From Strigops habroptila (lineage: Eukaryota > Chordata > Aves > Psittaciformes > Psittacidae), in NCBI RefSeq assembly GCF_004027225.2, contig NW_022651111.1:170769-234768 (forward strand): a DNA stretch of 64,000 nt. Direction: 5' to 3'. The translations under genes and the position numbers were made by a program. Below the pieces are notes generated by a model, which saw nothing but the letters and a program-made list of their open reading frames with translations, did no database searches and had not been told where the DNA came from. How positions within the stretch are numbered: position 1 is the first letter of the stretch; the number at the start of each line of letters is the position of its first letter. Below, in pieces: positions 2,433 through 35,685 of the stretch.

Positions 2433-5400
2433 GTTGGCTCTTGGACTGGATGGTTGGGTGTTGGTTGGGTGATGGGGTCAATGGTTGGGTGATGGGGTCA
2501 TTGGTTGGGTGATGGGGTCAATGGTTGGGTGATGGGGTCATTGGTTGGGTGATGGGGTCATTGGTTGGGTGATGGGGTCAATGGTTGGGTGATGGGGTCA
2601 GTGGTTGGATGATGGGGTCATTGTTTGGATGAGGGTCATTGGTTGAGTGATGGGGTCATTGGTTGGGTGATGGGGTCAGTGGTTGGGTGATGGGGTCAAT
2701 GGTTGAGTGATGAGGTCACTGGGCGGGTGATGGGGTCAATGGTTGGGTGATGGGGTCATTGGTTGGGTGATGGAGTCAATGGGTGATGGGGTCAATGGTT
2801 GGGTGATGGGGTCAATGGGTGGATGATGGAGTCAATGGTTGGGTGATGGGGTCATTGGTTGGGTGATGGGGTCATTGGTTGGGCGATGGGGTCACTGGTT
2901 GGGTGATGGAGTCAATGGTTGGGTGATGGGGTGGTCAACCACCTCATGGGCCCCTTCTTGGCCTGTTGGCCAATGGGAAGGCTCTTTGACTGTGTTGGCC
3001 GCTGTCCCACCCTCATTGTCTGCTCCATGGGGCTCGCCCCATAGATATGGTGGAGGAGATTGTGGGGTCCAGTGGCTGGCCTCCAGCCAGCCCCCCTGAC
3101 CCCTCAGTGGGGGTCATGGCCATCCATGAGGACCAATGGCATGGGGACATGGCCACCAACATCACAACACCAGGTAAGGTGGTGCTTGATGGGGCTGGTC
3201 CATGGTGGCACCATGGATGGACTCCATTGAGCTTGATGGGGTTGGACCATGATGGCACCATGGATGGACACCCTTGATAGGGTTGGTCCATGATGGCACC
3301 ATGGATGGACACCCTTGATAGGGTTGGTCCATGATGGCACCATGGATGGACACCCTTGATAGGGTTGGTCCATGATGGCACCATGGATGGACACCCTTGA
3401 TAGGGTTGGTCCATGATGGCACCATGGATGGACACCCTTGATAGGGTTGGTCCATGATGGCACCATGGATGGACACCCTTGATAGGGTTGGTCCATGATG
3501 GCACCATGGATGGACATTCTGCCCACCTCCACCCCTATGGCAGCCCCAATGGACCCCAATAGAGGGCAACCAGTCGCCAAAGCTGACCACAGTCACACAT
3601 CCATCCTGATTGGCTGCTTGGTGGCCATCATCATGCTCCTATTGGGCGTCATCTTCCTCATCCTCTGGCGGCAGTACTGGAAGAAGATCCTGGGGAAGGT
3701 GAGTGGGACTGGGAGGGACTGGGAGGAACTGGGGGGCTGTTGGTGGCCTGGGTCTACCTGAGGTTCTCCCATAGGCCCGGCCGTCAGAGGATGAGCTGCG
3801 GGTGCAGCTCTCGGTGCCCGGTGACACCATTGTCATCAACAACGTGACAGCGGCGGCGCGAGGACCCCCCCGCTACGAGAGGATCCCACCGGAGGAGGGC
3901 GAGTACCAGGAGCCAACGCGGCCACCGGGGCCACCGGCACCTCCGGGACATGGTGAGGGGATGGGGGGTGGATGGATGGATGGATGGATGATGGACAGAT
4001 GGTGGATGGATGGATGATGGATGGATGATGGATGGATGGATGGATGGATGGATGGATGATGGATGGATGATGGATGGATGGATGATGGATGATGGATGGA
4101 TGGATGGATGATGGATGATGGATGATGGAGGATGGATGATGGATGGATGATGGATGATGGATGGATGATGGATGGATGATGGATGATGGATGATGGATGG
4201 ATGATGGATGATGGATGATGGAGGATGGATGGATGGATGGATGGATGGATGGATGGATGGATGGATGGATGATGGAGGATGGATGATGGATGGATGATGG
4301 ATGATGGAGGATGGATGATGGATGGATGATGGATGGATCTATAGATGTATTCAGGGGTGCAGCCTCCAGGCCCCGCCCCTCTCCTAACCCCCCCCACAGC
4401 TCCCTTCGCCAATCCAGGCTATCGCCTCCTCCTGGCCACCTATGCCCAGCCAATGGGAGGGCTCGGTCGGGCCCCACCTGACGGGGCTAAGCCAATCAAC
4501 ACAGATGGTGAGGTGAAGCCCCGCCCCCTTCGGGTCTGAACCCTCCCACACCTTTCCTGAAGCCCCTCCCCTTTGGACCTGAAACAGTTTAGCCCCGCCC
4601 CATCCATGTTGATCCCTCCCCTCCCGATTTAGCCCCTCCCACCTTGTTCTAGCCCCTCCCCTCTTCCTATAACCCTGCCCTATAGCCACCTGCCCTTATA
4701 GCCCCTCCCCTTCTTCCTATAGCCACACCCCCTTATAGCCTCTCCCCTTCTCCCTATAGCCACATCCCCTTATAGCCCCTCCCCTTCTCCCTATAGCCAC
4801 ACCCCCTTATAGCCCCTCCCCTTCTTCCTATAGCCATATGCCCTTCCTATAGCCCCTCCCCTCTTATTGTAACCCAGCCCCTTTGCTATAGCCCCTCCCC
4901 TTGTGTTATCCCCGCCCCCTTTAACCCCTCCCCTTATGCAGAAGCCCCGCCCTATTTCCAACCCCCTTCCCTTTAGCCCCGCCCCCACTGACCCTTCCCC
5001 CCACCCCTTGCAGAGCCCGAGGGCGGGGCCGAGGCCTACGCGGAGGCTGACGTCACCGGAGGCTCCGCCTACCCCGCGTGTGGCCCCGCCCCCTGCCCCG
5101 CCCTCCCGGCTTTCCCGCGCCGGCGCCTGCGCTTCCGGCAGAAGCTGGGGGAGGGGCAGTTCGGAGAGGTGAGACACGCCCCCTCCCGCGCCAAACCACG
5201 CCCCCCCGCTAGGCCACGCCCCCCCCGCCACGCCCCTTCCCCCAACCCACCTGGCTGGAAACCCCGCCCCTCTATAAGCCACGCCCCCAATGTCCCTATT
5301 AGGTGAAGGCCCCTTGGGGTGAAGCCACGCCCCTTCTCTCAAGCCACGCCCATTTACAATCTAGCCCCGCCCCCCGGTTAGCCCCACCCACTCAGAATGA

Positions 5401-8400
5401 AGCCCCGCCTTTTGGTATTAACCACGCCCCTTTGGGGAAGCCCCGCCCCTTGCTGCTGAGGCCATGCCCCATTGGTTAAACCCTGCCTCCGGTGAGTTGA
5501 AGCCCCGCCCCGTTGTTGAGACCACTCCCCTTTAGTGTTAGCCCTGCCCCGCCCGCCTGAGGCCACGCCCCTCATCGAGGCCCCGCCCCCTCAGGTCCTC
5601 CTGTGCGAGGTCGAGGACCCGCAGGCGCTGCCGCCGGGGTCACGACCCCCGGACCTGCCGCGCGGGCGCCCTCTGCTGGTGGCCGTCAAGGTGCTGCGCC
5701 CGGACGCGACCAAGAACGCCCGGTACGGGGGGGGGGGCGAGTGTGTAAAGGGGTGGAAATGGGCTGTGAGTGTGCAAGAGGGGGTGTAAATGGGGTGTGA
5801 GTGTGCAAAGGGGTGTAAATGAGGGTGTGAGTGTGCAATGGGGGGGTTCAAATGGGGGTGTGAGTGTGCAAGGGGGTGCAAATGGGGGTGTGAGTGTGCA
5901 AGGGGGTGTAAATGAGGGTGTGAGTGTGCAACGGGGGGGTTCAAATGGGGGTGTGAGTGTGCAATGAAGGTGCAAAGGGAGGTGTGGGGCCTAAAGGGTT
6001 GTGCAAATGGGGTGTGAGTGTGGGAGGGGGTGCAAATGGGGTGTGAGTGTGCAAGGGGGTGCAAATGTGGGGTGACTGTGCAAGGGGGGGTGCAAATGGG
6101 GGTGTGAGTGCACAAGAGGGGGCTCAAATGGGGGTGTGAGTGTGCAAGGGGGGGTTCAAATGGGGGTATGAGTGTGCAATGAGGCTGCAAATGGAGGTGT
6201 GGGGCTTCAAGGGGTGTGCAAATGGGAGTGTGAGTGTGCAAGGGGGTGCAAATGGGGTTTGAGTGTGCAAGGTGGGTGCAAATGGGGATGTGGGTGTGCA
6301 ATGCGGGGTTCAAATGAGGGTGTGAGTGTGCAATGGGGGGTTCAAATGGAGGTGTGAGTGTGCAATGAAGGTGCAAATAGAGGTGTGGGGCTTCAAGGGG
6401 GTGTGCAAATGGGGGTGTGAGTGTGCAAGGGGGGGTGCAAATGGGGTTTGAGTGTGCAAGGTGGGTGCAAATGGGGCTGTGAGTGTGCAAGGGGGTGCAA
6501 ATGGGGTTTGAGTGTGCAAGGTGGGTGCAAATGGGGGTGTGAGTGTGCAAGGGGGTGTAAATGGGGTGTGAGTGTGCAAGGGGGTGTAAATGGCGGTGTG
6601 AGTGTGCAAGGAAGGTGCAAATAGAGGTGTGGGGCTTCAAGGGGGTGTGCAAATGGGGGTGTGAGTGTGCAAAGGGGGTGCAATTTTGGGTGTGAGTGTG
6701 CAAGGGGGGTGCAAAGGGGCGTGCGAGGGCTGACGGGGGGGTCAGGCGGGACTTCCTGCAGGAGGCGCGCACCATGGGGCGCCTGCGGGACCCCAACATC
6801 GTGCGGCTGCTGGGGGTGTGCGCGGGGCCCGGCCCCCTCTGCATCATCACCGAGTACATGGAGCACGGCGACCTGCACCAGTTCCTGGGCGGGCCCACGG
6901 GGCATGCCCTCAGGTGCGACACGGCCCCTTTAAGCCTTTAGGACACGCCCCCTTCCCTTTAGCCCCCGCCCCTTTAGCCCCGCCCATTCCCTTTAGCCAC
7001 TCCCCTTCGCTTTAGCCATGCCCCTTCTCTTAAACTCCGCCCCTTCAGCCCCTCCCATTCCCTTTAGCCCTGCCCCTTCCATTTAGCCACACCCTTCCCC
7101 ATTTAACCACGCCCCTTCTCTTTAGCCCAGCCCCTTCCCTTTGACCACGCCCCTTCCCTTTTGCCCTGCCCCTTCCCTTTAGCCCAGCCCCTTCCCTTTA
7201 ACCCCGCCCCTTTAGTCCCACCCTTCCCCTTTAGCCACGCCCCTTCATTTAACCACGCCCCATTAACCACGCCCCTTTACCTCTGCCCATTCCACTTATC
7301 CCTGCTCCTTCCCTTTAGCCACGCCCCTTCCTTTAGCCCCGCCCATTCCCTTCAACCCCTCCCATTCCCTTTAGCCCTGCCCCTTCCCTTTAACTCTGCC
7401 CTTCAGCCACACCCACTCCCTTTAGCCACGCCCCTTTCACCAAGCCTCTTTGGCCCCCTGCCCACTCCCTTTAGCCACGCCTCTTTAGCCCCGCCCCTTC
7501 CCTTCAGCCCCACCCTTCCCCTTAAGCCCCGCCCCTTCCCTTTAGCCCCAACCTTCCCCTTTAGCCCCGCCCATTCACTTTAGCCCCGTCCATTCCCTTT
7601 AGCCCTGCCCATTCCCTTTTGCCACGCCCATTCTCTTTAGCCACGCCCCTTTATCCCTGCCCATTCCATTTATCCCTGCCCATTACCTTTAGCCACGCCC
7701 CTTCCCTTTAGCCCACCTCTCCCCTTTAGCCACCCCCCTTCCCTTTAGCCCCGCCCATTCCCTTTAGCCCCAACCTTCCCTTTAGCCCCGCCCATTCCCT
7801 TTAGCCCTGCCCATTCCTTTTAGCCACGCCCCTTCTCTTTAGCCACGCCCCTTTTCTCCTGCCCATTCCATTTATCCCTGCCCATTCCCTTCAGCCACCC
7901 TCTTCCCTTTAGCCCCGCCCATTCCCTTTAGCCCTGCCCATTCCCTTTAACCACGCCCCTTCCCTTTAACCACGCCCCTTTACCCCTGCCCATTCCATAT
8001 ATGCCTGCCCCTTCCCTTAAGCCCCGCCCCTTCCCTTTAGCCCCGCCCATTCCCTTTAACCACGCCCCCCCTTTAGCCCCACCCTTCCCCTTTAGCCCCG
8101 CCCTTTCCCTTTAGCCCCACCCTTCCCCTTTAGCCCCAACCTTACCCTTCAGCCCCGCCCTTCCCCTTTAGCCCCACCCCTTCCCTTTAGCCCCGCCCAT
8201 TCCCTTTAGCCCTGCCCATTCCCTTTACGCACTCCCCTTCCCTTTAACCATGCCCCTTTACCCCTGCCCATTCCATATATGCCTACCCCTTCCCTTTAGC
8301 CACGCCCCTTTCATTTAACCACGCCCCTTTACCCCCGCCCATTCCATATATCCCTGCCCCTTCCCTTTATCCCCGCCCCTTCCCTTAAGCCCCACCCCTT

Positions 8401-11400
8401 CCCTTAAGCCCCGCCCCTGACGCCCCGCCCCTGGCCCCGCCCAGCCTGGCCACGCTGCTGCACGTGGGGGCGCAGATCGCCTCCGGGATGCGCTTCCTGT
8501 CGGGATTGAACGTCGTGCACCGGGATCTGGCGACGCGGAACTGCCTCGTGGGGCCCGGCGTCACCGTCAAGGTGGCGGACTTCGGCATGAGCCGGCCCCT
8601 CTACACCGCGCACTACTACCGCGTGCGGGGCAGGGCCCTGCTGCCCATCCGCTGGATGGCATGGGAGTGCATCCTCATGGTGGGAATGGGATGGGAGTGC
8701 TTCCTCATGGTGGGAATGGGATGGGAGTGCATCCTCATGGTGGGAATGGGATGGGAGCGCTTCCTCATGGTGGGAATGGGATGGGAGTGCTTCCTCATGG
8801 TGGGAATGGGATGGGAGTGCATCCTCATGGTGGGAATGGGATGGGAGCGCTTCCTCATGGTGGGAATGGGATGGGAGTGCATCCTCATGGTGGGAATGGG
8901 GTGGGAGCGCTTCCTCATGGTGGGAATGGGGTGGGATGGGAGTGCATCCTCATGGTGGGAATGGGATGGGAGCGCTTCCTCATGGTGGGAATGGGGTGGG
9001 AGTGCATCCTCATGGTGGGAATGGGATGGGATGGGAGTGCATCGTCATGGTGGGAATGGGATGGGAGCGCTTCCTCATGGTGGGAATGGGGTGGGAGTGC
9101 ATCCTCATGGTGGGAATGGGATGGGATGGGAGTGCATCCTCATGGTGGGAATGGGATGGGATGGGATGGGAGCGCATCCTCATGGTGGGAATGGGATGGG
9201 ATGGGAGAGCATCCTCATGTGGGAATGGGATGGGATGGGAGCGCATCCTCATGGTGGGAATGGGATGGGATGGGAGCGCATCCTCATGGTGGGAATGGGA
9301 TGGGATGGGAGCGCATCCTCATGGTGGGAATGGGATGGGATGGGAGTGCATCCTCATGGTGGGAATGGGATGGGATGGGAGTGCATCCTCATGGTGGGAA
9401 TGGGGTGGGATGGGAGAGCATCCTCGTGGTGGGAATGGGGTGGGAGTGCATCATTATGGTGGGAATGGGATGGGATGGGAGCGCATCCTCATGGTGGGAA
9501 TGGGATGGGAGCGCTTCCTCATGGTGGGAATGGGATGGGAGCGCTTCCTCATGGTGGGAATGGGATGGGAGTGCATCCTCATGGTGGGAATGGGGTGGGA
9601 GCGCTTCCTCATGGTGGGAATGGGGTGGGAGCGCTTCCTCATGGTGGGAATGGGATGGGAGTGCATCCTCATGGTGGGAATGGGGTGGGAGCGCTTCCTC
9701 ATGGTGGGAATGGGGTGGGAGCGCTTCCTCATGGTGGGAATGGGGTGGGATGGGAGCGCATCCTCATGGTGGGAATGGGGTGGGAGCGCATCCTCATGGT
9801 GGGAATGGGTTGGGATGGGAGGGCATCCTCATGGTGGGAATGGGATGGGATGGGAGCGCATCCTCATGGTGGGAATGGGATGGGAAACGGATGCAAGCAG
9901 GAATGGGCACAAAGGGGATCTGGCGTGGGGATTAAAGGGGTTTGGAAGGGGATTGGAATGGGGTTGGAATGGGGTTGGGGGGTAATGGGATACAGTGGGG
10001 TGCAATGGGGTGCAATGGGGTACAATGGTATAGAATGGGGTGCAGTGGGGTACAATGGGGTGCAATGGGGTGCAATGGTATAGAATGGGGTGCAGTGGGG
10101 TACAATGGGGTGCAATGGGATACGATGGAGTACAATGGGGTGCAACGGGGTGCAATGGGGTACAATGGGATACAATGAGCGCAATGGGATACAGTGGTAT
10201 ATAATGGGGTACAATGGGGTACAATGGGGTACAATGGTATAGAATGGGGGGCAATGGGGTACAATGGGATAGAATGGGGTGCAATGGTATATAATGAGGT
10301 GCAATGGGGTACAATGGGGTGCAATGGGGTACAATGTGATACAATGGTGTGCAATGGGATACAGTGGTATATAATGGAGTGCAATGGGGTACAATGGGGT
10401 ACAGTGTGATACAGTGGGGTACAACGGGGTGCAATGGGGTGCGATGGGGTACAATGGGGTGCAATGGGGTACAACGGGGTGCAATGGGGTACAATGGGGT
10501 ACAACGGGGTGCAATGGGGTGCAATGGGGTGCGATGGGGTGCAGGGGGGTACAACGGGGTGCAATGGGGTGCGATGGGGTGCGATGGGGTACAACGGGGT
10601 GCAATGGGGTACAACGGGGTACAATGGGGTGCAATGGGGTGCGATGGGGTGCAATGGGGTACGATGGGGTACAATGGGGTGCAATGGGGTACACCGGGGT
10701 GCAATGGGGTGCAATGAGGTGCAATGGGGTACAATGGGGTGCAGTGGGGTGCAATAGGGTACAATGGGGTGCAATGGGGTGCGATAGGGTACAACGGGGT
10801 GCGATGGGGTACAATGGGGTGCAATGGGGTACAATGGGGTGCGATGGGGTGCAATGGGGTGCAACGGGATACAATGGGGTACAATGGGGTACAACGGGGT
10901 ACAACGGGGTGCAATGGGGTACAATGGGGTGCAATGGCATACAATGGGGTACAATGGGGTGCAATGGGGTGCAATGGGGTACAATGGGGTGCAGTGGGGT
11001 ACAACGGGGTACAACGGGGTGCGATGGGGTACAATGGGGTCCGCAGGGCACGTTCACACCCGCCAGTGACGCGTGGGCCTTCGGGGTGACGCTGTGGGAG
11101 GTGCTGACGCGGTGCCGGGAGCAGCCCTACGGGCGCCTGAGCGACGAGCAGGTCATTGCCAACGCCGGGCACCACTTCCGGGCACAGGGCAGGCAGGTGA
11201 GCTGTGGGGCAATGGGGGCGATGGGGGCAATGGGGGCAATGGGGGTAATAGGGGTGATGGGGGCAATGGGGGCAATGGGGGACAATGGGGGCAATGGGGG
11301 CAATGGGGGTAATGGGGCAATGGGGACAATGGGGGTAATGGGGGCAATGAGGGCAATGGGGGCAATGGGGGCAATGGGGACAATGGGGGTAATGGGAGAA

Positions 11401-12040
11401 ATGGGGGCAATGGGGGTAATGGGGGTAATGGGGGCAATGGGAGAAATGGGGGCAATGGGGGCGATGGGGGCAATGGGGGTAATGGGGGTAATGGGGCAAT
11501 GGGGGCAATGGGGGTAATAGGGGTGATGGGGACAATGGGGGTAATGGGGGCAATGGGGGCAATGGGGGCAATGGGGGTAATAGGGGTGACGGGGGCAATG
11601 GGGGCAATGAGGGCAATGGGGGCAATGGGGGCAATGGGGGTAAGGGGGGCAATGCCATTGTCCCATATCCGACACCCCACACCCCATATCCCATATCCCA
11701 CACCCCATATCCCACCCCCCATATCCCATATCCCATATCCCATGCCCCATATCCCACACCCCATATCCCATATCCCACACCCCATATCCCATATCCCATA
11801 TCCCATACCCCACATCCCATATCCCATATCCCATATCCCATATCCCATACCCCATACCCCACACCCCATATCCCACACCCCATATCCCAATCCCTGTGCC
11901 AGGAGTACCTGCCGTGCCCCCCGGGCTGTCCCCCCGCTCTCCATGGGGTGATGTTGCGCTGCTGGGCCCGGGACGCCGCCGACCGGCCGAGCTTCGGCCT
12001 CCTGCACCGCCTCCTGCGGGACCGCTCCGGGCTGGCATGA
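579..12040 (+). CDS. DDR1: DDR1, discoidin domain receptor tyrosine kinase (3' fourteen coding exons)
   Basis: Collagen-activated receptor tyrosine kinase of the plasma membrane. Coding exons: 579-726, 897-999, 1508-1694, 2186-2432, 3045-3173, 3544-3698, 3775-3952, 4400-4507, 5014-5168, 5595-5722, 6746-6913, 8445-8679, 11047-11196, 11903-12040. All boundaries are AG/GT, phases agree, and the total is 2229 nt (742 codons plus stop) with no frame break. Order of domains: end of the discoidin domain ([13 protein letters not shown]), discoidin-like domain ([22 protein letters not shown]), a transmembrane helix, a Pro-rich juxtamembrane segment with NPGY, then a kinase with [22 protein letters not shown] and WMAWECILM. 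Human DDR1 is about 900 residues, so the signal peptide and most of the discoidin domain lie left of the window. DDR2 is excluded by the long Pro-rich juxtamembrane segment. The introns consist mainly of minisatellites. Confidence 0.96.
1010..1480 (+). repeat. Intronic repeats in DDR1, including a 37-bp ATGGCACCATGGATGG family
   Basis: From 1010 to about 1250 the intron is degenerate tgtccccaaactgtcc sequence. From about 1283 to 1480 there are about four copies of a unit centred on catgatggcaccatggatgg followed by acacccttgagcttgatggg. The same unit recurs at 3180-3520 in a later intron of the same gene. Confidence 0.85.
1710..2140 (+). repeat. Intronic short repeats in DDR1 (CTTCCCATTGGAGACCC family)
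   Basis: After a few gatggtgggcaatggggt copies (1720-1830), the sequence cttcccattggagaccc recurs at about 20-60 bp spacing to about 2120. Nothing coding is seen between the exon ending at 1694 and the one starting at 2186. Confidence 0.75.
2445..2940 (+). repeat. 21-bp GGTTGGGTGATGGGGTCAATG minisatellite in DDR1 intron
   Basis: About 23 head-to-tail copies of ggttgggtgatggggtcaat/attg with single-base variants, starting just after the exon ending at 2432. The remaining 100 bp to the next exon is unique intron. Confidence 0.92.
3045..4507 (+). CDS. DDR1: DDR1 stalk, transmembrane helix and juxtamembrane exons
   Basis: Four exons (3045-3173, 3544-3698, 3775-3952, 4400-4507). The first is a poorly conserved extracellular stalk. 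The second contains RGQPVAKA followed by the membrane helix [16 protein letters not shown] and a short basic stop-transfer. The third has [12 protein letters not shown], a strongly conserved DDR1 segment, then Pro- and Glu-rich sequence. The fourth has [14 protein letters not shown], where mammalian DDR1 has [13 protein letters not shown]. The NPxY phosphotyrosine adaptor motif is therefore kept with one internal change. The acceptor at 3543 follows the last unit of an intronic minisatellite and was chosen because it joins the preceding phase-1 exon in frame. Confidence 0.9.
3180..3525 (+). repeat. 37-bp minisatellite in DDR1 intron
   Basis: Eight or nine copies of a unit reading gatagggttggtccatgatg then gcaccatggatggacaccctt. 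The first two copies carry the older form (gagcttgatggggttgg) shared with the array at 1283-1480; the rest are nearly identical, so this array expanded recently. Confidence 0.93.
3960..4345 (+). repeat. (TGGA)n / ATGATGGATGGA microsatellite in DDR1 intron
   Basis: Continuous tggatgga and gatggatgatgga tract that fills the intron after the exon ending at 3952. The same tetranucleotide recurs at 37077-37240 beside the assembly gap. Confidence 0.95.
4550..5590 (+). repeat. C-rich short repeats (TAGCCCCTCCCCTT, CCACGCCCC) in two DDR1 introns
   Basis: Both introns flanking the 5014-5168 exon consist of degenerate tagcccctccccttcttccta and aagccccgccccttt units, 14-25 bp long. They contain many GC-box-like cgcccc words, but these are by-products of the repeat and not evidence of a promoter. 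No coding potential is seen outside the exon. Confidence 0.8.
5014..12040 (+). CDS. DDR1: DDR1 tyrosine kinase domain exons
   Basis: Six exons (5014-5168, 5595-5722, 6746-6913, 8445-8679, 11047-11196, 11903-12040). The glycine loop (KLGEGQFGE) closes the first, [15 protein letters not shown] the second, and the hinge ([15 protein letters not shown]) lies in the third. The fourth holds the catalytic loop [14 protein letters not shown], the activation-loop tyrosines (YTAHYY) and WMAWECILM. The fifth holds [14 protein letters not shown]; mammals have SDVWAFG, so Val is Ala here. The last ends [18 protein letters not shown] and tga at 12038. All catalytic residues are present, so an active kinase is expected. 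The linker between the hinge and [12 protein letters not shown] is shorter than in human DDR1. Confidence 0.95.
5735..6728 (+). repeat. 29-bp GTGTGAGTGTGCAAGGGGGTGCAAATGGG minisatellite in DDR1 intron
   Basis: About thirty copies of a unit combining gtgtgagtgtgcaa, a G-run and gtgcaaatgggg, filling the intron between the exons ending at 5722 and starting at 6746. Higher-order copies with gtgtggggcttcaaggggg recur several times. Confidence 0.93.
6925..8435 (+). repeat. 19-bp TTCCCTTTAGCCCCGCCCA minisatellite in DDR1 intron
   Basis: About seventy to eighty degenerate copies of ttccctttagccccgccca fill this 1.5-kb intron. The unit itself resembles a polypyrimidine tract plus acceptor (ccctttag), so the intron contains dozens of decoy 3' splice sites ahead of the real acceptor at 8444. 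Confidence 0.9.
8656..9895 (+). repeat. 30/35-bp minisatellite seeded from the DDR1 kinase exon end and its splice donor
   Basis: The unit is atgggagtgcatcctcatgg plus tgggaatggg. The first copy is the true exon end (TGGGAGTGCATCCTCATG, residues WECILM) plus its donor gtgggaatggg. About 38 further copies follow, alternating gtgcatcc, gcgcttcc and gcgcatcc, with 5-bp insertions (atggg) from about 8930 on. Before that insertion the units are 30 bp and keep the frame of the kinase exon. The exon boundary was placed at 8679 because the next exon (11047) continues the kinase sequence exactly from there. Confidence 0.93.
9975..11040 (+). repeat. 10-bp GGGGTACAAT / GGGGTGCAAT minisatellite in DDR1 intron
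   Basis: About 105 copies of ggggtRcaat fill the rest of the intron up to the acceptor at 11046. Because the dimer and trimer have no stops in several frames, both strands show long spurious open frames. Confidence 0.95.
11198..11895 (+). repeat. GGGGGCAAT array followed by CCCATATCCCACACC array in last DDR1 intron
   Basis: 11198-11655 is 9-bp gggggcaat/gggggtaat, the same family as at 1-335. At about 11660 it changes abruptly to catatccca/caccccatatccc to about 11890. A family like the second array, in the opposite orientation, is at 50560-51085. Confidence 0.92.
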
Positions 12041-12840
12041 GCAGCAGCATCATCATCATCACCTTCATCATCACCATCATCATCATCATCATCCTCATCC
12101 TCCTGCACCGCCTCCTGCGGGACCGCTCTGGGCTGGCATGAGCAGCAGCATCATCATCATCACCTTCATCATCATCATATCATCATCATATCATCATCAT
12201 CCTCCTGCACCGCCTCCTGCGGGACCACTCTGGGCTGGCATGAGCAGCATCATCATCACCTTCATCATCATCATCATCCTCAGCCTCCTGCACCGCCTCC
12301 TGCGGGACCACTCCGGGCTGGCATGAGCAGCATCATCATCATCATCATCACCTTCATCATCATCATCATCCTCATCCTCCTGCACCGCCTCCTGCGGGAC
12401 CACTCCGGGCTGGCATGAGCAGCATCATCATCATCATCACCTTCATCATCATCATATCATCATCATCCTCCTGCACCGCCTCCTGCGGGACCACTCTGGG
12501 CTGGCTTGAGCATCATCATCATCATCATCATCATCATATCATCATCATCTTCATCCTCATCCTCCTGCACCCCCTGCTGCAGGACCGCTCCAACCTCACT
12601 TGAGCATCACCATCATCACCATCAGGATCACCTTCAGCATCATCCTCATCTTCATCCCCACCTTCATCCCCACCGCACCGGCCTTGCTTGAGCTTCATCA
12701 CCTCCAGCATCATCATCATCCTCACCTTCATCTTCATCCTCCCCTTCATCCTCATCACCACCACACCAGCCTCACTTGAGCATCATCATCTTCAGTATCA
12801 TCATCGTCCTCACCTTCATCATCCTCATGGGCATCATCCT
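12041..12840 (+). repeat. Tandem copies of the DDR1 terminal codons plus stop, with (ATC)n
   Basis: Immediately after the DDR1 stop there are about eight copies, 80-110 bp each, of cctcctgcaccgcctcctgc plus gggaccgctccgggctggcatgag followed by an (atc)n/ttcatc stretch. The first segment is the last coding sequence of DDR1 ([13 protein letters not shown]-stop). Copies at about 12100, 12210, 12290 and 12385 are nearly identical; those at about 12470, 12565, 12655 and 12750 are progressively degraded. These lie in the presumed 3' UTR and are not coding. Confidence 0.92.
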
Positions 12841-21432: not shown

Positions 21433-23321
21433 TCAGTTGCTGAGGGACGAGGCCTGTGCCCCCGGGGCGGGGGCCGGGGGGAAGCAGGGCTGGGGGAAGG
21501 CGCGGGCAGGGAAGGGCAGGGCCCAGGGCAGCTCCAGCCCCGGCACCGGCAGCGCCGCGGCCGCACCGGGGAAGGGCGGCAGCGCCGGGACGGGCGCGAA
21601 GGGGCCGGAGAAGCCGCCCCCACCGGAGGGGCCGGTGCTGCTGGGGCCGGTGCCAGCCCCGGCGCTGCTGCTGCTGCTGCTGGTGGTGGTGGTGGTGGCC
21701 CCAGCGGTGGCTTTGGGCTTGTCCCCGGCGTGGGTGCGCTGGTGGCGGTTGAGGTGGGAGCTGCGGCTGAAGCACTTCCCGCACTCGGGACACTTGTAGG
21801 GCTTCTCCCCGGTGTGGACGCGCTGGTGGATGGTGAGCTCGGAGCGTTGGATGAAGCTCTTCCCGCACTCGGAGCACTGATAGGGCTTCTCGCCCAAGTG
21901 GGTCCGTTGGTGGGTGATGAGGTTGGAGGAGACGCTGAAGCACTTCCCGCACTCCCCACACTTGTAGGGCTTCTCCCCCGTGTGCATCCGGCGGTGGATG
22001 GTGAGGTCCGACTTCTGGATGAAGCCCTTCCCGCAATCCCCGCAGGCATAAGGCTTCTCTCCCGTATGGATCCGGCGGTGCTTGACCAGCGCCGAGCGTT
22101 GCCCAAAGCCCTTCCCACATTCCCCACACTTATAGGGCTTCTCCGGTGGTGGCACCGGAGCCGTTTCGGTGGCACCGGCATCCGATTCCATCCCGCAATC
22201 CAAGCACTGTTGAGCACGAGGACGTAACCCAATGGTCCCACCTCGGTTCTTGCCGCAATCCGGACATTTGGGAGCTTGTCCCACGGATCCTCCGGCGCCG
22301 TGAGAACGTTGATGCTTCAACAACGCGGCGCCTTGACCGAAGCATCTCCCACAGTGAGAACACTGGAAGAGGCGCCCGTGGCGATGGGCAGCCAAGAAGC
22401 TGCTGAGATGTTCGGGACAACGGTAGGACGCCCGCTCGGCCACGTGGATCTTCTGGTGCCGGTCAAGGTGGGAGCTGACGCTGAAGCTCTTCCCGCATTC
22501 TGGACACGTATAGGGCCGTTCCCCGGTGTGAACCCGTTGGTGGCGTTCCAGGTCGGAACGTTGGATGAAACCTTTGCCGCAGTCCCCACAAGCAAAGGGC
22601 CGTTCTCCGGTGTGGATGCGCCGGTGTTGGGTCAAGTTGGAGCCACGGCTGAAGCTCTTGCCGCAATCCCCACAGCGATGGGGCCGGTCACCGCTATGGG
22701 TCTTGCGATGCTTGGCCAACGCGGACCGTTGGGAGAAGCTCTTCCCGCAATCAGGACAACGATGAGGAGCTGCGGAACCTTCGGGAGACGCTCGAGGACG
22801 AGCCCGGGGGGGACCGGGGCCACTTGCGTGGGTCTGGCGATGCCGGTCCAGGTGGGAACTGACGCTGAACCTCTTGCCACAGTCTCCACACGGATACGGC
22901 CGCTCGCCGGTGTGGACCCTGCGGTGGCGTTCCAGGTCGGAACGTTGGATGAAGCCTTTGCCGCAGTCCCCGCAGCGGTGGGGCCGCTCTCCGGTGTGGA
23001 TGCGCCGGTGCTGGGCCAGGTTGGAGCCGCGGCTGAAGCCTTTGCCACAGTCACCGCAACGATGGGGTTTGTCCCCACCGCGATCCGGTTGCCGGCAGCG
23101 CCGCCCGCACTCGGAGCAGCGCCGGCGTCTCATGGGGCTTCGGGAGCGGATGCGGGTCCCGCACTCGGAACAACCGGCCCGGAACGCCGGAGCTGCTTTA
23201 CCCGCGACAGGGGGTTCAGTGGGTTGCTCTTGGCTTTGGTGGTGGGTGGCATCTTCCAATGTGGGTTCCTCGATGTCCTGCGGTGATGGGTCCTCCTCGG
23301 TGCCGCTCCCGGCGCCGGTAC
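21433..23321 (-). CDS. Zinc-finger exon of the first minus-strand gene
   Basis: Starts after a TTTCTCCTTGTCCTTCAG acceptor. An acidic leader ([22 protein letters not shown]) is followed by two Cys-x2-Cys half-motifs without histidines ([16 protein letters not shown]), then 13 full CxxC-x12-HxxxH fingers. Helices of fingers 1-3 (SRGSNL, IQRSDL, SVSSHL) recur exactly in fingers 5-7. The [10 protein letters not shown] and [10 protein letters not shown] segments have lost ligands. The C-terminus is Gly/Pro/Ala-rich. The ORF could extend upstream to an in-frame ATG at 23388, but the acceptor makes that intronic. Confidence 0.93.
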
Positions 23322-33391: not shown

Positions 33392-35685
33392 TTAACACGG
33401 CGCCAGCTCCTTTGGTGGCTCCTCAAGCGGTTCCTCTCCGTGCCCACGCAGATGCCGATGGAGATGGGACCTGACCCCAAAGCGCCGTCCACAGCGTGGA
33501 CACGGGAAGGGCTTCTCCCCACCATGGACCCGCCGATGCTTGGCCAAGGCTGAGCCGTCAGTGAAGACCTTCCCGCAGTCGGGACAAGCGTGTCGAGGTC
33601 CAGCGTGAGCCCGTTGGTGCTTCTGGAAGTGGAGGGTGCTGTTGAAGCTCTTCCCGCACTCAGCACACACGTGGGGCTGGCCCCCGGCGTGGGTCCGTTG
33701 GTGGCGGTAGAGGTGGGACGTCCTCCCAAAGCGCTTCCCGCAGTCCCCGCATTGATAGGGACGTTCTCCAGTGTGGATCCGTTGGTGCCGTTCCCAATGG
33801 GAGCTCCAGGAGAAGCTCTTCCCACAGTCCCCACATCTATAGGGCTTCTCCCCACCACCGGCACCACCACGGTGGTGGCTCCGCTGGTGACGGACGTACT
33901 GAGCGCGGGCACCAAAGGCTTTGCCGCACTCTTCGCAACGGAAAGGGCCGTCTCCAAGGTGGAGCCGTTGGTGTTTGACCAACGTCGAGCCATCGCCGAA
34001 GCTCTTCCTGCACAGGGTGCACTTGTAGGGCCTTTGGCCGGTGTGGGTGCGTTGGTGGCGGTCAAAGTGGAGGGTGCTCCCGAAGCTGCGGCCACAATAG
34101 GTGCAGATGTAGGAGCGGCCGCCGGCGTGGGTGCGCTGGTGCCGGTAGAGGTGGGAGCTGCGGCTGAAGCACTTCCCGCACTCGGGACACTCGTAGGGCT
34201 TCTCCCCGGTGTGGACGCGTTGGTGGCGATCAAAGTGGGAGCTCCAGCTGAAGCTCTTCCCGCAGTGGCCGCACTGGAAGGGCAAGCGGCCGGTGTGGAG
34301 GCGTTGGTGGGTCACCAGCTCCTTGTTGCGGCGGAAGCTCTTCCCGCATTCCTCACACTTGTAGGACGAGCCTCGGGCCGGCGCCGGCGGCGACGGGCGC
34401 TGGGCACCGTGAGAGCGTTGGTGGCGGTAGAGGTTGGAGCTGACGTTGAAGCTCTTGCCGCAGTGGAGGCACAAGAAGGGCTTCTCCCCGGTGTGGGTCC
34501 TGCGGTGCTTGCTGAAGTGGGAGCTGCAGCTGAAGCTCTTCCCGCACTCGCCGCACTGGTAGCTCTTCTGGAGCACGATGATGCTCTTGATGTTGGAGAA
34601 GGCGCCGCCTCCGGGGCTGGTTTTGCCACTGCGACGTCCTCCGGTGGCAGTGGGAGAGTCGATCTGTTGGACCACGGTCCAATGCAGCGTCTCCCGCTCG
34701 CCCGCAGGAGCCTCCTCAACGTGGCCCAACAAAGCGGCCGTGTCCAGCTCGATGATCTCGGGGTCTTCTGCTGCTGGAGGGTCCATGTCCACGACGCTCG
34801 GGGTCACTAAGAGCGGGGGGAATGGGTCAGTCCTGGGATGGAGACCACGATCCCCATGGGAACATCAAAGGGGATGGAGACCACCATCGCCATGGGAACA
34901 CGAAAGGGGATGGAGACCAGCATCCCCATGGCAACGTCAAAGGGGATGGAGACCACCATCCCCATGGGACCACAAAAGGGGATGGAGACCACCATCCCCA
35001 TGAGACCATCAGAGGGGATGGAGACCAGCATCCCCATGGGAACATCAAAGGGGATGGAGACCACCATCACCATGGGAACATCAAAAGGGATGGAGACCAC
35101 CATCCCCATGGGACCACAAAAGGGGATGGAGACCAGCATCCCCATGGGAACACCAAAGGGGATGGAGACCACCATCCCCATGGGACCATCAAAGGGATGG
35201 AGACCACCATCCCCATGGGAACATCAAAGGGGATGGAGGCACCCATCTCCATGGGAACATCAAAGGGGATGGAGACACCCATCTCCATGGGGCCATCAAA
35301 GGGGATGGAGACATCCCTATGGGACCATCAAAGGAGCTGGTGATCCCCATAACTTGGAGTTTCCTGGATGTCCTCAATGCAGGGATCAAGGATATGGGTC
35401 CCATCCCCATGAGACCATCAAAGAGGGTGGTGAACCCCATCCCCATGGAGCCATCAAGTTATGTTGAACGCCATAACTTGGAGGTCCTTGGTACATCCTC
35501 AAAGGAGGGATCAAGGATACAGGTTCCATTGCGGGAATGCTGCTGGGCCCAGGTCTCCATCCCATTCCCAAGCCCATCCCTCCTCCCCACTTACTCTGCA
35601 TCACGGGGGGGTTGTAGGCATCTTCCTCCCCATTGCCCCCAAAGAGCCCCGTCTGCTCCGGCCCCGCAGATCCCCATGGATCCAT
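33392..35685 (-). CDS. C2H2 zinc-finger protein, two coding exons (13 fingers)
   Basis: Presumed nuclear DNA-binding protein, about 501 residues. Exon 1: 35709-35595 with the first in-frame ATG at 35685 (MDPWGSAGPEQTGLFGGNGE), acceptor CCCTCCAG, donor AGTAAGT. Exon 2: 34806-33392. Both ends are phase 1, and the join regenerates an ATG codon (VMQ-MTPSVVD). An acidic leader (DPEIIELDTAALLGHVEEA) precedes 13 C2H2 fingers; most have CxxC-x12-HxxxH with TGEKP, AGG or TGQRP linkers, and one His-rich linker (HHRGGAGGGEKP). No KRAB, SCAN or BTB domain is seen. Fingers 4-6 and 9-11 resemble each other (SWSSHF/SWSSHW, SSHLYRH/TSHLYRH, STLHF/STLHF), suggesting internal duplication. The last finger ends a few residues before the C-terminus ELAPC. 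No specific gene name can be given. Confidence 0.88.
34835..35335. repeat. 36-bp GGGGATGGAGACCACCATCCCCATGGGAACATCAAA minisatellite
   Basis: About fourteen copies of a 36-bp unit in the single identified intron of the second zinc-finger gene, starting about 30 bp inside the acceptor. The unit contains the complementary words gggatgg and ccatcccc, so each copy can fold back. 35335-35594 is unique intron. Confidence 0.92.

Follow-up and report, generated by a model that had tools for sequence, protein, structure and literature searches.

Probable exon stuttering at the 3' edge of a DDR1 kinase-domain exon of Strigops habroptila

In this study, a 64,000-nucleotide stretch of Strigops habroptila DNA (the window) was analysed, and we concluded that a tandem array starting at the 3' edge of a DDR1 kinase-domain exon is very probably a case of exon stuttering, a local and largely neutral expansion whose unit straddles the exon border. 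This reading is based on the anatomy of the array, the identity of the gene, the locality of the array in the assembly and the absence of frame enrichment, all of which were observed. With it, exon stuttering would extend to a receptor tyrosine kinase, and the locus offers a natural test of how the spliceosome chooses when a real donor is followed by 35 exact copies. The features are as follows, in window coordinates.

8445..8679, + strand: DDR1 kinase-domain exon m, with HRD and DFG, whose 3' end seeds the array (human DDR1 alignment; tblastn, 76% identity)
8656..8685, + strand: seed, made up of 24 bases at the exon end and 6 at the start of the intron; the real donor lies between 8679 and 8680
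8656..9885, + strand: exon-seeded array of 38 units (TRF and unit list)
8680..8919, + strand: first eight copies, 30 bp each and in frame, with donors at 8709, 8739, 8769, 8799, 8829, 8859, 8889 and 8919
9494..9733, + strand: another eight consecutive units of exactly 30 bp, here not in the frame of the exon, which serve as a control for the frame argument
9984..11040, + strand: second intronic array, with the 10-bp unit AATGGGGTAC, filling most of the remaining intron up to the acceptor (TRF)
11047..11196, + strand: next DDR1 exon; its acceptor is G-rich and the pyrimidine tract poor
11903..12040, + strand: last DDR1 exon, whose end seeds a second array
12099..12591, + strand: copies of the last-exon end with its stop codon, five and one partial, in the 3' flank

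Judged by its sequence, the array-bearing gene is DDR1. Joining 8445-8679 to 11047-11196 gave a gapless alignment to human DDR1 chains that scored above DDR2, which, together with tblastn, bears out the first-pass annotation in its gene name, its exon coordinates and its join of 8679 to 11047. A 15-exon model running from -1640 to 12040, and thus into same-contig sequence upstream of the window, encodes 817 residues with discoidin, DS-like and kinase domains and one terminal stop. The exon boundaries of this model were chosen by GT-AG and frame and its first coding exon or exons lie outside it, and its open frame should be read with the caveat that the acceptor of exon i was shifted until the frame opened. 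The DDR2 paralogue on another contig (C8) has the same exon junction, after WESILL, and its acceptor at the junction equivalent to 11047 is pyrimidine-rich.

TRF reported the array in a single row (8656-9885, period 30, 38.4 copies), and cutting it after every ATG gave 38 units, namely the exon's own edge (8650-8679) and 37 copies of 30, 34, 35 or 40 bp. The minisatellite across the exon-intron boundary that had been noticed earlier is therefore real, and the count of about 38 copies after the real edge is corrected to 37. The unit had been described as six codons (WECILM) fused to the donor; the donor and intron bases (GTGGGA) stood, while the exon part extends to as much as 24 bp (MAWECILM), with one mismatch to the usual copy. 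The donor context had also been claimed for each copy, and this held for most of them: ATG/GTGGGA (the slash marks the boundary) is exact in 35 of the 37 copies, and the remaining two have GTG/GTGGGA and, after the loss of a base at boundary 9219, CAT/GTGGGA. ATG or GTG before GTGGGA is thus kept in 36 of 37 copies, each of which contains a donor, and 12 extra GGG/GTGGGA sites lie inside array units. After the donor at 8919 the copies drift by 5-bp ATGGG insertions; the donors of the second exact run extend from 9493 to 9733. No stop occurs within the array in any of the three forward frames, the first stops after 8680 being at 9933, 9983 and 10081. Exact direct repeats of 119 bp, offset by 90 bp, were found at 8672/8762 and 9536/9626, which shows block duplication within the array. 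Fifteen canonical G4 motifs lie in the array (8920-9868) against a mean of 2.6 in 200 shuffles, one in each of the 15 longer units (34, 35 or 40 bp) and none in the 30-bp units; this distribution is compatible with an origin in replication stress, though no proof of one. Altogether, 97% of the array-bearing intron is tandem repeat.

The array is not a product of chance. At a cut-off of 26 identical bases out of 30, the 30-bp boundary seed had 36 matches in its own intron (best 29). None reached that level in 40 introns simulated with a first-order Markov model (best 22), which excludes a chance origin of the matches. The other 13 of the 14 donor-side exon ends had no match at 26/30 or better in their own introns, and no acceptor-side exon-edge copy was found at 26/30 bases across the 14 DDR1 introns. 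In the assembly (1.149 Gb in 89 contigs; all unit-pattern counts are lower bounds), a search for the unit pattern gave at least 34 exact matches; all of those listed lie in the DDR1 array, and none among them is on the reverse strand of the 1.15 Gb. In the 3' flank, the same edge control found five matches (at least 26/30) to the end of the last exon. These last-exon copies alternate with CAT-rich spacers over a region (11997-12657) outside any intron; the repeat is a second exon-edge array, with no splicing consequence in the 3' flank, and its presence supports exon stuttering.

Sequence or exon stuttering on avian dot chromosomes was described by Hron et al. (2026, Genome Biol Evol; PMC12954441), whose text reports 115 chicken genes and 236 introns, 190 of the introns being on dot chromosomes. 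More than 90% of the sources abutted the exon border; copies numbered 1-44 and the exon part measured 20-187 bp, and length variation was seen in 183 of the 192 introns with exon stuttering. The DDR1 array, with 37 copies and 24 bp of exon, falls within these ranges. As in that description (PMC12954441), a piece from the edge of an exon, splice site included, is copied in tandem into the adjacent intron, the introns are filled with repeats while a clean ohnologue (here DDR2) exists elsewhere, and the coding frame is open, the 15-exon model reaching a single terminal stop. A blastn-short screen of the published kind, run with exon m against its intron, gave 24 matches of at least 20 bp (best 44.1 bits), just three of which exceeded the published threshold of 42.1 bits (PMC12954441) because the exon part is short; ten intron shuffles gave no blastn-short match for exon m. 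Those that passed the threshold extend to the final exon base (235 of 235), and the units run on into GTGGGA; that the copied edge reaches the exon border also supports stuttering. Over DDR1 as a whole, the screen pointed to one intron of 14, plus the last exon. Two traits set the locus apart from the published account as far as its main text describes it (PMC12954441): the source is a kinase-domain exon with eight in-frame copies next to it, and another array, derived from the end of the last exon with its stop codon, lies in the 3' flank, where a screen of introns would miss it. Copied splice sites are mentioned there as a source of potential alternatively spliced transcripts, raised only as a possibility, and in the main text the words 'isoform' and 'RNA-seq' do not occur (PMC12954441). 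DDR1 likewise does not occur in that main text, although chicken DDR1 may be in the 115-gene list of the supplement, nor does it in the MicroFinder main text; a 'DDR1' match in PMC5470226 proved to be a DOI string. In the literature searched, we found no paper on the DDR1 array.

The frame of the copies deserves closer discussion. The first-pass annotation held that the first eight or nine units are 30 bp and in frame and that later donors would add decapeptides without breaking the frame, and both points were confirmed: there are eight such copies, or nine units with the exon's own, their donors lie 30, 60 and so on to 240 bases downstream, and all eight models, which would add one to eight decapeptides, stay open to the normal stop. 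Its suggestion that the frame was kept for the sake of isoforms found no support. In-frame unit donors number 14 of 37 (the real one included), where one third would be 12.3, and 20 of the 49 GGTGGGA sites, again counting the real one, give a model whose frame runs on to the usual stop codon. The 23 thirty-bp units, counting that of the exon, vary commonly at three positions, one of them a third codon position and two of them first positions; the latter two change an amino acid, Cys/Arg (11/12) and Ile/Phe (10/13), or 5/3 and 3/5 in the eight in-frame copies. In shuffled spacings, the probability was 0.008 for eight exact 30-bp steps at the start of the array, 0.13 for a run of that length anywhere and 0.0008 for two of them. 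The first of these values, which holds if spacings are independent, could hint at frame selection, but the last indicates that unit spacings are clustered and not independent. The equally long out-of-frame run, the 14 of 37 in frame and the amino-acid-changing variants together fit block slippage and not selection of a peptide ladder. Nothing suggests selection on the copied peptide, eight short units being a small sample, and frame selection was rejected as unproven on the frame counts, the comparison of the two runs and the codon positions.

Splice signals were scored with a donor matrix and by U1 pairing. The real donor and its exact copies have a matrix score of 1.65, which no other GT of the intron surpasses; this value ranks 12th among the 14 modelled DDR1 donors, which counts against 8679 as the used donor. 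By U1 pairing, the copies and the real donor are equal (-7.3), and slightly better values (-8.5) belong to the twelve GGG/GTGGGA sites, six of them in frame. The donor at 8679 is therefore not singled out by sequence alone. The unit donors that are out of frame (23 of 37) place a stop codon 107 or 127 nt upstream of the final junction. Nonsense-mediated decay (NMD) usually follows a 50-55 nt rule, under which NMD would be expected from these stops. The acceptor at 11047 has a pyrimidine fraction of 0.35 between positions -20 and -4, and the sequence leading up to it (11003-11047) is G-rich; no yUnAy branch-point motif occurs within 100 nt of it. All 34 such motifs of the intron are confined to the array, none of them beyond 9863, and the ten among them that were listed are CTCAT within array units. 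The acceptor of exon l (6721-6746) is also G-rich and poorer still (0.24). The intron before the array exon carries a 19-bp array of its own (CCCCTTCCCTTTAGCCCCG, 6949-8418, 79.3 copies by TRF), and the CCCCTTCCCTTTAGCCCCG consensus resembles a pyrimidine tract with AG, so that its copies are possible decoy acceptors.

A minisatellite with multiple splice donors was reportedly described in human IFI6 (6-16, G1P3) by Turri and colleagues (1995). Zhuo and colleagues reportedly derived introns in human genes from tandem arrays (PNAS, 2007); the DDR1 locus is similar in its tandem duplication of splice-site-bearing sequence, which may feed alternative splicing, and differs from those human genes in that no intron gain is shown. 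In human IFI6, two downstream repeat units act as splice donors and give three mRNAs (PMC4526556). The DDR1 units likewise offer alternative donors, in 36 of 37 copies, but the IFI6 donors are reported to be used in mRNA (PMC4526556) and those of DDR1 are known from sequence. In human DDR1c, a splice insertion of six residues lies in the kinase domain (PMC8595330).

Three other readings were weighed against these results. Substantial mis-splicing, intron retention or NMD, caused by equal donors and a poor 3' splice site and making array length a modifier of expression in cis, is in our view possible but rather unlikely. It would be compatible with a neutral origin of the array and draws on the 23 of 37 out-of-frame donors with their stops 107 or 127 nt before the last junction, on the twelve sites that pair better with U1 and on the weak acceptor at 11047, with its low pyrimidine fraction and missing yUnAy. 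Against it, the still poorer acceptor of exon l belongs to the same open gene, so that weak signals may be tolerated, and consensus scores are poor predictors of use. Far less probable is a functional ladder of DDR1 kinases with one to eight extra decapeptides, which array length would tune between individuals. That the eight nearest copies all give open models, that 35 copied donors match the real one in all nine bases and are outscored on the matrix by no GT of the intron, and that precedents exist in IFI6 (PMC4526556) and in the known DDR1c insertion (PMC8595330) speak for such a ladder; the lack of overall frame enrichment, the out-of-frame run of equal length, the missense variation among copies, including Cys to Arg, and the like array in the 3' flank, where splicing is unaffected, speak against it. 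We therefore give little credence to its corollary, a mix of DDR1 receptors with zero to eight decapeptides whose proportions would depend on how many 30-bp units precede the first 5-bp insertion. If it were true, a collagen-receptor kinase would be under genetic tuning by an unstable repeat in its intron.

It is more improbable again that the array is an assembly artefact with a copy number inflated or collapsed in a repeat-rich contig. The window ends at the end of the 234,768-bp contig (C83), and such regions are reported to be hard to assemble (PMC6792250), but the copies are non-identical, with ordered variants and several length classes. The exact copy number in the assembly is nevertheless uncertain.

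Considering all the above results, we propose that exon stuttering accounts for the locus as follows. The 24 exon and 6 intron bases were copied 37 times downstream, and the array probably grew by unequal exchange or replication slippage in blocks of one to a few units. No selection would act on the copies, and purifying selection would hold the exon's own copy only. The outermost donor, 8679, would give the standard protein, and the downstream donors probably have low-level use at most. The nearest eight would insert in-frame decapeptides between the kinase MAWE motif, which we take to be the APE-equivalent motif of DDR1 kinase, and helix F, giving, if used, an altered but open kinase; out-of-frame donors would yield NMD targets. 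Neutral expansion with possible splice noise, which had been offered earlier as a fallback, fits better, and the phenomenon is a published one (PMC12954441).

The surroundings of the array are also rich in repeats. TRF covers 83% of the 14 DDR1 introns combined (0.12-0.98 each) and 3.6% of 12 approximate DDR2 introns on C8; it covers 65% of the window and 54% of the first 150 kb of the contig, whose GC content is 60%. On this repeat signature, the DDR1 contig may belong to a dot chromosome. Of 2456 DDR1 exon bases, 171 are overlapped by TRF (24 in the seed part of exon m, 44 in that of exon o and all 103 of 103 in exon a); as in the published account, the repeat blocks leave the coding exons intact. 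Exon a was rejected as a further case, the covering row being one degenerate 7-bp TRF row that spans the exon, and neither the sequence upstream of exon a nor its intron held copies of it. Close to the transmembrane exon, an array at 3185-3516 resembled acceptor stuttering, but this reading was dismissed, since the phase-consistent acceptor lies past it, at 3565. Elsewhere in the window, TRF found repeats with an 84-bp period at 21715-22144, 22841-23067 and 34109-34310, and their consensus resembles C2H2 zinc-finger coding arrays.
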